Assembly: GCA_017471245.1 (NCBI GenBank)
Contig: JAFUVB010000004.1
Coordinates: 1 to 33,111, forward strand
DNA from: Prevotella sp.
GTDB taxonomy: Bacteria > Bacteroidota > Bacteroidia > Bacteroidales > Bacteroidaceae
DNA: 33,111 bases
Direction: 5' to 3'
Shown: positions 557 through 33,111 of the stretch, piece by piece
Position numbering within the stretch: the first letter of the stretch is position 1
Layout: every line of letters starts with the position of its first letter
Position numbers and translations under genes: made by a program
Notes under the pieces: generated by a model
What the model was told of the DNA's origin: nothing
Database searches by the model: none
Seen by the model: the letters and a program-made list of their open reading frames with translations, nothing else

Positions 557-3500
557 ATGTACTGTTGTCCCGCAGGATTAAGCGGAACCTATTCTGTTAT
601 TGATGGAACCGAAATCCTTTGGGGGGCATTTATTGGATGTATTAAAATTACGTCCATTATATTGCCAAAAACTATCAAAACTATTAGTGATAGTTGTTTC
701 TCTGGCTGTGAAAAACTACAGGAAATTGAATTTCCAAACTCTGTTGTTGAAATTGGCGCATACATCTTTAGTAATTGTAAAAGCCTGTCTACAATAAACT
801 CGTATATACAAGAACCATTCACAATTCCTGAATTAATAGATTCTTATAGTGGAAGCACATTTTATGAGAAAACACGTTTAATTGTACCCTTAGGTTGTGT
901 TTCAAAATATAGACAAATTAAATACTGGAATAACTTTCAAATAATAGAAGAAAGGAAAAACAATGAGTATAGTGTCAACATCACTTCATCAGGTAATGGG
1001 AGCGTAACATACAACAGCACTTCTGTTAAGAATAAAACGCAGTCGTTTACCGTGAACGAAGGTTCTTCGGCTACACTTACATTCACACCAGACAACGGAT
1101 ATAGGCTTGCAAGCGTGAAGGTAGGAAGTAAGGATGTAACATCAAGTGTTTCGAACAACAAATACACCATCAGCAATATCTCTGCCAATACAACTGTAAG
1201 CGTTACCTTTGAGGCGATTCCCGTTACCACCTATACACTGAGCATAACTGCATCGGGAAATGGAAGCGTAACATACAACAGCACCTCAGTTAAGAATAAA
1301 ACGCAGTCGTTTACTGTGAACGAAGGAACTTCGGCTACACTTACATTCACACCAGACAACGGATATAGGCTTGCAAGCGTGAAGGTAGGAAGTAAGGATG
1401 TAACATCAAATGTTTCGAACAACAAATACACCATCAGCAATATCTCTGCCAATACAACTGTAAGCGTTACCTTTGAGGCGATTCCCGTTACCACCTATAC
1501 ACTGAGCATAACATCTTCTGGCAACGGTTATGCAAAATATATAAGCAAGACTGTGAGGAATACTACTGAGAGTTTTTCAGAGAAAGAGGGCACATATAGC
1601 ACGGTTTTCTTCTATCCCGATGATGGATACCGTATTAAGTGTGTAAAAGTGAATAATGCAGATATAACCTCCGTCTTATCAGGTAACAACTACACGGTTA
1701 CGGTAATGTCTAACACTACAATAATCGTTATATTTGAAGCTATTCCTGTCGCAACTCACAAGCTAAGCATTGCCGTAACAGGACGAGGATCTGTAGGCAT
1801 AAAGAGCAATACCATATCAGGAAATGGAACACTGTCGGGCTCTGCTATTATCTACGAAGCCCCCAATGGATCTTCTGCAACACTTACATTTACCCCCGAA
1901 GATGGCTATACTCTGAAAAGTGTGAAAGAGAACGGAACAGACGTATCTGCAAAGTTGACCAACAATGAATATACATTGAGCAACATTTCTTCAGACATTA
2001 CCATAGAAGTGATATTCGAGAAAATGGAACAAGCCATTGACATAGAGAAATACTTATCAGCAATGTTCACCGGCGGTTCTATGACCCAGGTAAACAAACG
2101 CCTAAATTCGGGAAGCCAGTTGAATTGGAGATTCACCAACAACAGCGAAGCCGACGTCACCCTGAAGAGTTTACAGTTGATTGACGGACAAACCAATGAA
2201 GCCGGAAATATAATGAATGTTGATAAAGTCGTTGAGGCAAATGCATCTGTATCATATACAACTACCATTGGTTTGTCAGGTATCGGAATTCCTGTTACAT
2301 GCAGGTTCAGATACGAATATAATGGAAACGAATACTCCATTGATGCCATATATAAAGAATTGACTATACCTGAAACATCATATTCACTGTCAATCAAATG
2401 CTCCGGCAATGGATATGCCTCATATAACAACTCTACCATACGTAATACAACATCTAAATTTACGGTTAAGAAGGGTGAATCGGCAACAGTATCATTCACT
2501 TCGGGATCTGATAATTATCTCAAGAATGTGACGGTGGATAATAAAAACGTCACTTCGAATGTGATAAATGGGAAATACACCATTAGCAGCATGTCATCGG
2601 ATGTGACAATCAGTGCTGAATTTGAAGAAATTCCCAAATCCGTTGCTTACGAAGATGTGAATTATAACGTGACATCCTATGACAAGAAGACGGTGAGCGT
2701 GGCAAGCGGCAGTTATGGAAAAGTGCTGACTGTTCCAGAATCATTTACCAAAGATGGTGTTACATGGCAAGTGGATGGCATAGAAAAGGATGCGCTGAAA
2801 GGAAACACCACATTAGCAGCTGTTGAATGGTATCCGTCAGTAGCTTTCACAGAGAAGCCAGAGAACCGTAACCTGCTGCTCTATGTATCGAGTGAACAAT
2901 TGGCACCTTCTGATATCAGGAACGTGATTGTAGGAAATACCGCGAAAAGCATTACTCTCAGCGATGCCACAAGCGGCAACGACTTCTATTGTCCGCGCGA
3001 ATTCACTGCCACAAACATCAGGTATGTACACTCTTACCGCATGAAGACCGGTATCGGCGAGAGCAGAGGATGGGAAACGATAGCACTGCCCTTTGATGTT
3101 CAAAAAATAAGCCATGCAAGCAAAGGCGAAATAGTTCCTTTTGCAAAATGGAACAATTCAACCACCACAAAACCGTTCTGGCTCTACGAAATGGGGAACA
3201 GCGGTTTCATTGAGGCAGATGCCATCATGGCGAATACTCCTTATATCATCAGCATGCCGAACAACGATCAATATCAAGATGGCTATTGCCTGAACGGAAC
3301 TGTCACCTTTGAAGCGAACAACGTGAAAGTGAAAAGAAGCGACGAGCTGAACAAGTCGGGAAACAGCACACGCACCTTTGTACCAAACTTTAGCTACATG
3401 CAGAAAAGCAACAGTGTATATGCGCTGAACGTAAACAATGAGTATGAGAACGACAGCAGCGGTTTTTCAGAAGGCAGCAGGTTTATTCTCAACAGCCGAA

Positions 3501-15787: not shown

Positions 15788-16816
15788 ATGAAGCGAATCA
15801 CATTCATCATCAACCCCATTTCGGGAACCGTGAAGAAGAAAGGGATACCGAAACTGATTGAGGAAACCATCGACAACGACCTGTATAGCTATAAGATCGA
15901 GGAGACGCAGTATGCCGGTCATGCCTCGGAAATAGCCAAGGCGGAGATGGAAAGCGGCACCGACGTGGTGGTTGCCGTAGGTGGCGACGGCACGGTGAAC
16001 GAAGTGGGACGCTCGCTTGTGGGTTCGCGCACCGCCATGGGCATCATTCCGTGCGGCTCGGGCAACGGTCTGGCGCGCCATCTGATGCTTCCGATGGACG
16101 TGCGCAGCAGCATCGAGATTCTGAACAGATGCGAAATCCACGACCTCGACTACGGTATCATCAACGAGCACCCCTTCTTCTGCACGTGCGGAATGGGCTT
16201 CGACGCCTTCATCAGCATGAAATTCGCCGAGGGAAACAAGCGGGGACTCGTGAAATACGTGGAAAACGTGCTGCGCGAGGGGCTTGCCTACAAGGCCGAA
16301 ACCTATCAGATTGAAGACGAACAGGGCGTTGCCGTGCGCAAGGCATTCCTGATTTCGTGCGCAAATGCATCGCAATACGGCAACAATGCGTATATTGCGC
16401 CGCAGGCTTCGATGAGCGACGGGCTGCTCGACGTGATTATCATGGAGCCGTTTGATGCTTTGGAAGCGCCGCAAGTGGCGATCGAGATGATGAACAAGAC
16501 ACTCGACAAGAACCAGAAAATCAAGACTTTCCGCACGAAACACATCCTTATCCACCGGAAAAGCGACGGTTGGATTCATTATGATGGCGATCCGGTGATG
16601 ACGGGACCCGATATCGACGTGCAACTCGTTGAGAAAGGCATCAGAATAGTGGTGAATCCGGATGCCGACAAGAAGAAACGGCACCCCAATATGGTGCAAA
16701 ACGCGTTCAGCGAGTTCTTTAACGACATCAATATCGTGAGGGGCGACATCACAAAACAGAGACGACACATACAGGCAATCAACAAAGTGCTGCTCAGAAA
16801 ACTGAACAATTTGTAA
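15788..16816 (+). CDS. diacylglycerol/sphingoid-type lipid kinase (YegS/BmrU family)
   Basis: 342 residues. The N-terminal DAGK catalytic domain (1-130) has FIINPISGTVKKK, nucleotide-binding VAVGGDGTVNEVGRSL and PCGSGNGLARHL. The C-terminal beta-sandwich has YVENVLRE, the lipid-kinase strand ISCANASQYGNNAYIAPQASMSDGLLDV and WIHYDGDPV. The family phosphorylates membrane lipids such as diacylglycerol, phosphatidylglycerol or long-chain bases. Its position head-to-head with serine palmitoyltransferase suggests a sphingoid or ceramide substrate, but that is inference. The terminal codons and the TAA lie inside the first unit of a 22-bp repeat array. Confidence 0.88.
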   Translation: MKRITFIINPISGTVKKKGIPKLIEETIDNDLYSYKIEETQYAGHASEIAKAEMESGTDVVVAVGGDGTVNEVGRSLVGSRTAMGIIPCGSGNGLARHLMLPMDVRSSIEILNRCEIHDLDYGIINEHPFFCTCGMGFDAFISMKFAEGNKRGLVKYVENVLREGLAYKAETYQIEDEQGVAVRKAFLISCANASQYGNNAYIAPQASMSDGLLDVIIMEPFDALEAPQVAIEMMNKTLDKNQKIKTFRTKHILIHRKSDGWIHYDGDPVMTGPDIDVQLVEKGIRIVVNPDADKKKRHPNMVQNAFSEFFNDINIVRGDITKQRRHIQAINKVLLRKLNNL

Positions 16817-16870
16817 GAGAAAGCAGAACAAGTTGTAAGAGAAAGCCAAACAATTTGTAAGGAAAAATGA
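16805..16870 (+). repeat. 22-bp array A (core ACAA-N-TTGT, AAG)
   Basis: Three consecutive 22-bp units start at 16805, 16827 and 16849, each beginning AACAA(T/G)TTGTAAG. The first two share AGAAAGC after that. The palindromic core ACAA-N-TTGT is centred at 16810, 16832 and 16854. The first unit contains the last codons and stop of the lipid kinase. The TAA in successive units (16814, 16836, 16858) falls in all three reading frames. Confidence 0.85.
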
Positions 16871-17026: not shown

Positions 17027-17062
17027 ATTTCTACTTTTAAACGCCCTCCTGTTTCAAGCTAC

Positions 17063-17155
17063 CTATGGTTTCACTGAAAAAAAACTATGTTTTTGAGGCT
17101 CAAAACCTATGTTTTTGACCGCCAAAACCTATGATTTTGAAGCCCAAAAACATAG
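17063..17155. repeat. 22-bp array B (core CTATG/CATAG)
   Basis: CTATG starts at 17063, 17085, 17107 and 17129 and its complement CATAG at 17151, every step exactly 22 bp. Units two to four read CTATG(T/A)TTTTGA, three variable bases, then C and a run of A. The fifth unit keeps the register but is inverted. The flanks AAAACCTATG and CATAGGTTTT are mirror images. The same core is found in the array near 32.7 kb. Confidence 0.85.
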
Positions 17156-17383
17156 GTTTTGAAAAGTAAAAGTTATTCTTAACGGAAGCAAAAATACTGA
17201 ATCTTTATAACCAATTGATTATTAATGAATTACATGAAGTGATTCAACTAACAGAGAAATCGCCGTTTTGCGCTGACGGGAAGTGCCGCCTCGCAATGTC
17301 GATGGGAAATCAATCTGATGCGATTCCAGCGAAGGGAGGACGCCGAACATGAGCTTCGGCACGAAAAATCATGACATGAACCA

Positions 17384-24590: not shown

Positions 24591-24660
24591 GGGCAACGTG
24601 CTCACTAACTGGGCTAAACATGCTCGCTTATTGGGCTATACGCGCTCACTAACTGGGCTA
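24591..24660. repeat. 22-bp array C (core TGGGCTA)
   Basis: GGGCTA occurs at 24611, 24633 and 24655, exactly 22 bp apart, each preceded by CTC(A/G)CT(A/T)A(C/T)T. A shorter, shifted copy starts with GGGCAA at 24591. The array fills the whole gap between the convergent helicase and araC genes. The last core contains the araC stop codon on the minus strand (TAG), and the TAGs at 24660, 24638 and 24616 fall in all three minus-strand frames. Confidence 0.85.
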
Positions 24661-24680
24661 TACGATAATGCGCGTTTTTT
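24640..24680 (+). terminator. possible terminator of the helicase gene
   Basis: ACGCGC (24640-24645) can pair with GCGCGT (24670-24675), followed by a run of six T (24675-24680). The loop is long (24 bases) and the right arm lies in the araC coding region, so this is only a weak candidate. Confidence 0.35.
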
Positions 24681-32233: not shown

Positions 32234-32263
32234 CCTCTCAAGCGTTTTACAACCATGACTCAC

Positions 32264-32632
32264 ATGAAAAAATATTTCGTGGTGTTTTTCGCCCTTCTGT
32301 TGCTTGCTGCCTGCAGCGAGCAGCAGAAGGCGGAACGCATTGTCAAGCGTTTCCTCGACGAGAACCTGGTGAACAGCGATTACAGCTGCGGTTTCGGCAA
32401 CATGGCAAGCACCCGCCGCATCGATGACAAGCAACTATTGCGGATGCAGGATCAGACCCGCAATGGCGACAAACTGTTCAAGCGCCCCACTCGATACGGT
32501 GCCTACAAGGAACTGGGAGAACTGCGCTACCTCAAGACAACGATCATCCAGGACAAGGATACATTCGTCCGCACCGTATATCTTCACCCGGAACTCCGCG
32601 ACGACGGGGTCATGGCTGTAAAGGAAAACTGA
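32264..32632 (+). CDS. small lipoprotein, function unknown
   Basis: 122 residues from the ATG at 32264 (an ATG three codons earlier is less likely). Lipoprotein signal MKKYFVVFFALLLLAACS, lipobox LAAC. The mature part is short and charged, with SEQQKAERIVKRFLDENLVNSDYS and a YLKTTIIQDKDTFVRTVYLHPEL strand pair, giving the look of a small cystatin- or DUF-type fold. I do not recognise the family. It starts 30 bases after pepD on the same strand. Confidence 0.7.
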   Translation: MKKYFVVFFALLLLAACSEQQKAERIVKRFLDENLVNSDYSCGFGNMASTRRIDDKQLLRMQDQTRNGDKLFKRPTRYGAYKELGELRYLKTTIIQDKDTFVRTVYLHPELRDDGVMAVKEN

Positions 32633-32692
32633 TTTACTATACAATCAGAACAACAGCCAATGGTTATTGGTTAACGCATATTTTTCCAAGAA

Positions 32693-32824
32693 CTATGCTT
32701 TTTATGGTTAAAACCATAGCTTTCCGACTTTAGAAGCATAGGTTTCGACTCATGAAACCTATGCTTTTAAGTATAGAAACCATAGCCTTGGGGGTATGAT
32801 AGCATAGCTTTTGGGGTATAGCAA
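32693..32824. repeat. 22-bp array D (core CTATG/CATAG, mixed orientation)
   Basis: Six cores begin at 32693, 32715, 32737, 32759, 32781 and 32803, each step exactly 22 bp. They read CTATG, CATAG, CATAG, CTATG, CATAG, CATAG. Most are flanked by AAAC or AAG on the left and (C/G)TTT on the right. The last two units also share a GGGGTAT stretch. Units 3 and 4 are near mirror images (AAGCATAGGTTTC against GAAACCTATGCTT). The core matches array B. Confidence 0.9.
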
Positions 32825-32936
32825 GAGACGGTTCACTCGGAACAGCACTGAATCAAGTCTTTCCCAAGGTACAAAAACGCATAAATGTGTTACTGCGTAT
32901 CAACCGCCTCATTATCAGCCACTTGACAAAAATCAT

Positions 32937-32976
32937 GCGTTACCTGCTGCGTTACTCGCTGCGTTACCTGCTGCGC
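32937..32976 (+). repeat. 12-bp tandem repeat
   Basis: GCGTTAC starts at 32937, 32949 and 32961 with CTGCT or TCGCT between copies, giving 12-bp units; a fourth unit begins at 32973 as GCGCG. The spacing differs from the 22-bp arrays, so this is probably a separate slippage-type repeat. Confidence 0.8.
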
Positions 32977-32986
32977 GTTTTTAGAT

Positions 32987-33040
32987 AATTAAGAATTAAG
33001 AATTAAGAGTTAAGAAAATATGAATTAAGAATTAAGAAAA
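32987..33040 (+). repeat. AATTAAG heptamer repeats
   Basis: Consecutive copies of AATTAAG (one as AGTTAAG) run from about 32987 to 33016, with a second small group at about 33022-33040. These low-complexity repeats are common between genes in AT-rich Bacteroidetes. Confidence 0.7.
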
Positions 33041-33111
33041 AATGAAAGAGCGAATTCGAGTGCTCTCGTGGATGATTTAGGAGTGCGAGCTACCCTAAGC
33101 GCAAACATTAC

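Follow-up and report, generated by a model that had tools for sequence, protein, structure and literature searches.

What holds six short cores exactly 22 bp apart in a piece of DNA where the bases between them have diverged and the cores themselves face in both directions? This question is posed by an array at positions 32693-32824 of a 33,111-nt stretch from the genome of a Prevotella sp.; the whole stretch is called the window here. In the window sequence, the core CTATG (+) begins at 32693 and 32759 and the core CATAG (-) at 32715, 32737, 32781 and 32803, and all six core starts from 32693 to 32803 are separated by exactly 22 bp, precisely as a preliminary description of this DNA had stated. 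The order of the cores, + - - + - -, contains three orientation switches, one fewer than claimed there. Read from the sequence, the cores lie in six 15-bp units: unit 1 (32688-32702, + strand, core CTATG at 32693-32697), unit 2 (32710-32724, - strand, CATAG at 32715-32719), unit 3 (32732-32746, - strand, CATAG at 32737-32741), unit 4 (32754-32768, + strand, CTATG at 32759-32763), unit 5 (32776-32790, - strand, CATAG at 32781-32785) and unit 6 (32798-32812, - strand, CATAG at 32803-32807). Around units 3 and 4, 32730-32746 and 32754-32770 form a 17-nt inverted repeat that is 94% complementary with 7 nt between its arms, and around units 1 and 6, 32801-32814 is an 86% inverted repeat of 32686-32699.

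The upstream neighbour of the array is a 125-aa ORF with a lipoprotein attachment signal (32255-32632, + strand), which ends about 50-60 bp ahead of the array and sits behind a gene of the M20 peptidase family (Pfam: M20 peptidase) that we take to be PepD-like. At gathering scores, Rfam matched two tRNAs in the window and no known structured RNA at the arrays, and a plasmid search with the 32693 array as query gave no match. The end of the window (32930-33111) is a dispersed repeat: its last 182 bp match the beginning of contig C93 at 97% identity, and other places have additional, partial matches. It includes a 7-bp tandem repeat, AATTAAG, and part of a 12-bp repeat, TGCGTTACCTGC. A separate tandem repeat, a 264-bp unit in two copies (95% matches), lies at 979-1512 within a long ORF.

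The 22-bp step is found at other places in the window. A recurrence of the core 15.5 kb away, mentioned in the preliminary description, proved to be a sister array of five units (17058-17160, + strand; cores at 17063, 17085, 17107 and 17129 (+) and at 17151 (-)), which shares the CTATG core and the 22-bp step, lies 15.6 kb from the six-unit array and is flanked by convergent genes, one YegS/diacylglycerol-kinase-like and one for a methyltransferase. Two more arrays of period 22 have units unrelated to CTATG: one of 3.2 copies (24595-24664) sits between convergent DEAD-helicase and AraC-type genes, and one of 3.5 copies of another unit (16796-16870) sits at and past the 3' end of the YegS/diacylglycerol-kinase-like gene. 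When the window was scanned by autocorrelation at periods 10-44, five arrays exceeded the threshold: three had period 22, one had period 12, and the last had period 44, which is twice 22. The more diverged six-unit array at 32693 scored below it.

The array, treated as a singular object in the preliminary description, is one of 46 CTATG/CATAG arrays in the 584 kb that we analysed of its own 3.73-Mb genome (114 contigs). A blastn search of this genome with the array at E values up to 10 had returned 115 matches, many of them overlapping or both-strand duplicates. A 402 kb set comprised the window and 369 kb of long contiguous stretches from six contigs known to hold some blastn matches, and the 584 kb set added 31 stretches picked around such matches; 18 of the 46 arrays come from the 402 kb. 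Within the 402 kb there are 15 uninterrupted runs of at least three at step 22, including five of at least six, and not a single run of at least three at any other step from 10 to 39. The preliminary description had suggested a comparison with shuffled intergenic sequence. Simulated sequence did not reproduce these runs: 30 first-order Markov simulations gave a mean of 0.03 runs of at least three and no run of four. These step controls and simulations rule out simple chance as the source of the step. In the 584 kb set, 176 pairs of the 5-mer are spaced by 22 bp, where the background is 2.5 pairs for a given distance. Autocorrelation peaks in the 402 kb were most numerous at period 22 (31), followed below 40 by periods 21 (16) and 14 (12), with none in five trials on locally shuffled sequence. 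Peaks were also seen at periods 14, 28, 42 and 56 (12, 6, 7 and 4, respectively, in the own-genome stretches L101-L120 plus the window); they probably stem from 7-bp units, AATTAAG for example, repeated in multiples, and those at 42 may also reflect period 21. For units scoring 13/15 or more and gaps of up to 30 bp, 188 of 199 gaps in the 584 kb were exactly 22 bp (65 of 70 in the 402 kb set alone); three were 21 bp, two were 23 bp, and the other six were 5, 17, 27 and 29 bp (one each) and 30 bp (two).

How can the orientation change without loss of register? Alignment of 25 six-unit arrays defined the unit as a 15-bp near-palindrome, AAAA-S-C-(TAT/ATA)-G-S-TTTT, followed by a diverged 7-bp spacer, in most cases with G as its first and C as its last base. 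Information content is about 1.4-2 bits at most core positions and lower at the S positions, compared with 0.1-0.6 bits at the inner spacer positions and about 0.2 bits in the flanks, a contrast between core and spacer that is partly ascertainment, the arrays having been located via the core. The commonest 7-bp centres are CCTATGC (55 of 257 units) and its reverse complement GCATAGG (51 of 257), and CTATG and CATAG differ by the three centre bases within a palindromic frame. Since the unit is near-palindromic, a switch alters only this small asymmetric centre, and inversion of whole units is unnecessary; the earlier argument, by which whole units would have had to invert, therefore falls. Recent tandem duplication alone was rejected, as neighbouring cores are 84% identical and neighbouring inner spacers 45%. 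Tandem duplication probably contributed, and most spacers have diverged since. Neutral decay would probably have left more spacer indels than are seen. At the locus of the six-unit array, the best of the 60 relatives searched reached 77%.

The step recurs across the genus, with other unit sequences. One own array used as query matched 11 of 100 same-genus genomes, its own included. We then sampled 18 same-genus genomes by stretches of 40-60 kb, taking ten for their long contigs and the other eight on account of an existing match; period-22 arrays were present in 13 of the 18 genomes and in 6 of the 10 in the long-contig subset alone. The 18-genome sample contains 34 arrays at period 22. Period 21 has eight, and each remaining period between 15 and 30 has fewer still. 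Many of the period-22 arrays are palindromes unrelated to CTATG, and some are not clearly palindromic. Among 80 loci around PepD homologues in Bacteroidales, period 22 accounts for 25 arrays at 21 loci and period 21 for 14 arrays at 12 loci. In one relative (G038) the arrays are built from palindromic AAAAGC(TAT/ATA)GCTTTT and have four units (88 bp) in 28 of the 29 counted, a count that was seeded from four-unit windows and could miss lower numbers, one further locus having been skipped; in a second (G093) the unit is AAAACCTATGGTTTT. P. nigrescens has, after removal of one duplicate entry, 33 AAAA-N7-TTTT arrays at step 22 in 450 kb, and control steps from 17 to 28 gave at most two arrays each. 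Gaps of less than 80 bp between its perfect AAAA-N7-TTTT units are 22 bp in 28 of 29 cases and 44 bp in the remaining one. Its 115 units contain 50 types of 7-bp core, a partly common vocabulary in which CAGGCTC or its complement makes up 30 of 115 units (12 and 18 by orientation).

Among 31 loci examined of the 80, there was no convincing case of an array at the orthologous position downstream of the PepD-like gene, two of the 31 having less than 600 bp of flank. The preliminary description had considered that orthologous regions might lose the register; at this one site the array was not out of register but absent. Such absence speaks for a mobile or self-propagating repeat family without host function, in which an element containing a 22-bp minisatellite spreads and units are lost, gained and flipped via template switching at palindromes. 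Dispersal of this kind is clear in one relative (G016), where arrays of 4-5 units with cores such as CCGTAGG/CCTACGG are housed in a dispersed element of 221 bases. At the 40 places scored of 325 candidates, no fewer than 193 of these bases were covered, with an identity of 85-100%; a related element occurs at 10 places in the P. nigrescens record (best 78.7% identity over 74%), and a phage search with the G016 element gave no match. The 45% identity of neighbouring spacers likewise suits a mobile family, as it indicates that units were probably duplicated from one another. For the own-genome arrays, however, dispersal is not clear: their flanks are unrelated (the 0.2 bits per position given above), and they are therefore not recent copies of a longer element. 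Moreover, 11 off-register against 188 in-register gaps seem few for neutral decay, and positions 330-430 kb of the P. nigrescens record, largely annotated insertion-sequence, mobilisation and other mobile-element genes, contained no array. A RAYT link was rejected: the Y1 transposase family (PF01797), which is linked to REP/BIME repeats, has one ORF in the own genome (G000:C33:4618-4956) and was not found in G016, G038 (81% complete) or G083, and is thus present in one of four array genomes. On balance, we consider a mobile family without host function unlikely as the explanation of the arrays.

Two published repeats come nearest to the arrays among those that we found. PINSR, a 188-bp intergenic repeat of the Prevotella intermedia/nigrescens group, is reported with 177 copies in one P. 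intermedia strain and 184 in another and was judged non-coding (PMC4755523). It resembles the arrays in being intergenic and in occurring in P. nigrescens, where the G016 array element matches 10 places, and the G016 element may be PINSR, an identification drawn indirectly through the P. nigrescens match. The part of the PINSR description available to us gives no 22-bp periodicity and reports the repeat from the P. intermedia/nigrescens clade only, whereas 22-bp arrays are wider in the genus (PMC4755523). The other is BrickBuilt, a MITE of Porphyromonas gingivalis described as having a 23-nt minisatellite unit, 1 to 22.8 repeats, a leader and a tail (PMC4596501). Intergenic tandem repeats whose unit is partly conserved and partly not are reported features of BrickBuilt that recall our arrays. 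BrickBuilt is also described as having small terminal inverted repeats; our arrays show T-rich and A-rich ends and, in 14 of 21 six-unit arrays, opposite-facing end units (see below). In contrast, the own arrays step by exactly 22 bp, have mostly five to six units, and lack a common leader or tail of the BrickBuilt type in the flanks of the 25 six-unit arrays.

The position of the arrays relative to genes was determined with a home-made hexamer gene caller and an overlap threshold of more than 20 bp. By this measure, none of the 46 own arrays and none of the 33 in P. nigrescens overlaps a called gene. By flanking genes, 15 own arrays are convergent, 22 tandem and 7 divergent, and two lie at contig or stretch edges; divergent flanks thus account for 7 of 44, compared with 5 of 33 in P. 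nigrescens. The nearest gene end is a 3' end for 30 of 44 own and 25 of 33 P. nigrescens arrays, against an expectation of about 43-46% from intergenic lengths, although this bias could merely reflect promoter avoidance. A stop-free frame of at least 150 codons spans 5 of 26 arrays in the PepD-locus set, 1 of 34 in the genus and none of 24 in the own genome, and some period-22 arrays may, judging from these frames, be coding.

The number of units is limited. After extension, the 46 own arrays have three (1), four (5), five (11), six (25), seven (3) or eight (1) units, so that 36 have five or six, and in most the ends are abrupt; 28 of the arrays were selected via a six-unit query, and a bias toward six is possible. 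The outermost units face in opposite directions in 14 of the 21 six-unit arrays in which both were called, compared with 3 of 22 for units 2 and 5 and 2 of 23 for units 3 and 4. Array ends tend toward TTTTTC on one side and GAAAAA on the other, T-rich and then A-rich, and together with the flipped end units this gives the whole array some dyad symmetry.

Such symmetry would suit an array that is, as a whole, an imperfect inverted repeat, forming several short hairpins or a single long one, by folding as RNA or by extrusion as DNA, and acting as an mRNA 3' structure or in a terminator-like role; the gathering of arrays at gene 3' ends and the flipped end units agree with this. The 32693 array folds at z = -6.0, and among the 25 six-unit arrays some fold very strongly against shuffles (L171, z -17.1/-14.4; L154, -14.1/-14.2; L152, -11.9/-13.3). 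Two of these, L171 (G000:C93) and L154 (G000:C73), near locus position 3000, are whole-array foldbacks whose spacers 1 and 5 are exactly complementary. The seven arrays of uniform orientation fold more weakly than the 15 mixed ones (median best z -3.8 versus -6.3). Complementarity of nested spacers exceeds that of other pairings (2.59 versus 2.35 of 7, P 0.01; with G-U, 3.54 versus 3.28, 0 of 2000 shuffles), but the effect is small and the pairs (1,4) and (2,5) score equally, and a nested long hairpin kept by spacer pairing was rejected. Hairpin models predict compensating changes, but covariation within units is mixed: complementarity falls below expectation at the most variable positions, 5/11 (58 of 257 versus 105) and 7/9 (11 of 257 versus 121), with a slight excess at 6/10 (240 of 257 versus 235.7, P 0.0035), and slight excesses between units at 10/next 6 (P 0.0075) and, in P. 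nigrescens, at 5/next 11 (P 0.02); hairpins within units were discarded on this ground. Hairpins between inverted neighbours in P. nigrescens failed as well: the excess of such neighbours was within what random flips (P 0.115) and shuffles of unit order (P 0.19 and 0.23) produce, and it reached significance only against pooling of units over arrays. In addition, hairpin loops should tolerate indels, whereas the spacers stay 7 bp, and the array ends carry no U-run after them. The structured RNA suggested in the preliminary description is thus matched by the strong folds of several arrays, and the weak and mixed covariation leaves the RNA itself a conjecture. We regard a foldback element as an unlikely explanation, although the arrays may still have originated or act as foldbacks, given their dyad symmetry and the very strong folding of some of them.

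Symmetry at the level of the unit extends beyond the own genome. In a circular palindrome test on the array consensus, with arrays of other periods from 16 to 40 as controls, 44 of 95 period-22 arrays reached P<0.01 against 17 of 105 other-period arrays, and 60 of 95 against 34 of 105 reached P<0.05, counts in which arrays of one family are not independent. By set, P<0.01 was reached in 10 of 25 arrays at the PepD loci, 4 of 26 in the own genome, 19 of 30 in the genus sample and 11 of 14 in P. nigrescens; we attribute the low score of the own arrays to their asymmetric centre and the S-S mismatch. A modulation of A+T content at 11 bp had P<0.05 in just one of the 26 own arrays and in 15 of the full 95, and one at 5.5 bp, which arises from the AAAA/centre/TTTT layout, in 11 of 26 own arrays. 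These modulations bear on the notion that the arrays are strong, DNA-wrapping gyrase sites comparable to E. coli BIME-2, with gyrase bound to some 130 bp of phased DNA. The reported E. coli gyrase motif extends over 130 bp with G/C content phased at 10 bp, and BIME-2 elements are described as acting as gyrase sites (PMC6379681); six units make 132 bp, and the 3'-proximal placement fits. A gyrase-like 11-bp phasing of G+C was tested and not found, however, and in G038 the usual length is four units, or 88 bp. Gyrase sites are, in our view, a very unlikely explanation.

REP/BIME clusters are extragenic, clustered near-palindromes with a 3' bias and alternating orientation. The own arrays share with them the intergenic, 3'-biased position, the near-palindromic unit and the clustering, and differ in their strict 22-bp step and their 15-bp unit. 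Orientation is mixed in both, in the own arrays mostly uniform with end-unit flips rather than alternating. A CRISPR array is implausible given a 22-bp unit with a 7-bp spacer. A site-specific recombinase whose overlap region would be 7 bp, an idea prompted by core words that occur in either orientation, was considered and dropped. Rows of operators for Lrp/AsnC-type proteins come closer in geometry: those of BarR are described as 15-bp semipalindromic, helically phased sites with the DNA wrapped round an octamer (PMC10201364), and their size of about 15 bp and regular helical spacing resemble those of the arrays. The operators lie in a regulated intergenic region, whereas the arrays occur at dozens of places, mostly behind genes. 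The known kind into which the arrays fall is that of dispersed intergenic palindromic repeats; among the open-access papers searched on Prevotella and Bacteroidetes, we recognised no description of an exact 22-bp step with freely changing palindromes.

For arrays with a register that has few deviations, a near-palindromic unit, a limited number of units, an intergenic, 3'-biased position and a step that recurs across species, the explanation that we favour, tentatively and with less than even confidence, is a set of sites with dyad symmetry, placed two helical turns apart so that a protein can bind them cooperatively. Each array would be a row of mostly five to six sites of about 15 bp, two helical turns apart, and at about 11 bp per turn every site would face the same side of the DNA. 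A dimeric or oligomeric protein would occupy neighbouring sites cooperatively, possibly bending or wrapping the DNA, and would do so in many intergenic regions, with a preference for those behind genes. From one species or locus to the next, individual sites would be gained and lost; the favoured core sequence would drift as well, while the spacing would be held by selection, as side-by-side protein contact would depend on it; an effect on transcription or nucleoid structure may follow. The preliminary description had already suggested selection for a site every two turns: its register stands, being far beyond chance and kept across genomes while the spacers diverge, and the bound protein is a proposal that we infer from this geometry.

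Several observations run contrary to phased protein sites. Unit sequences vary greatly from species to species, and within a single genome too, so that no one protein could recognise every array by its sequence. In the palindrome test the own arrays rank rather low, the one orthologous locus that was checked lacks the array, and some arrays of the own genome and of P. nigrescens lie between divergent genes. Lastly, opposite-facing end units are not required by a plain row of sites.

The published accounts confine PINSR and BrickBuilt to a single species or clade each. Should many unrelated repeat families turn out to rest on one and the same 22-bp spacing, a common physical constraint would be implied, and this can be tested directly; a DNA-binding protein acting globally in a lineage of major importance in gut and mouth would then also be possible. 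The spacing also provides a simple, sequence-independent rule by which such arrays can be found. Quite unlikely on present evidence, but of wider reach, is a genome-organising system shared across Prevotella, with dozens to hundreds of intergenic 22-bp arrays of palindromic sites bound by a cooperative nucleoid protein whose sequence preference changes fast and for which the spacing would be the fixed code.
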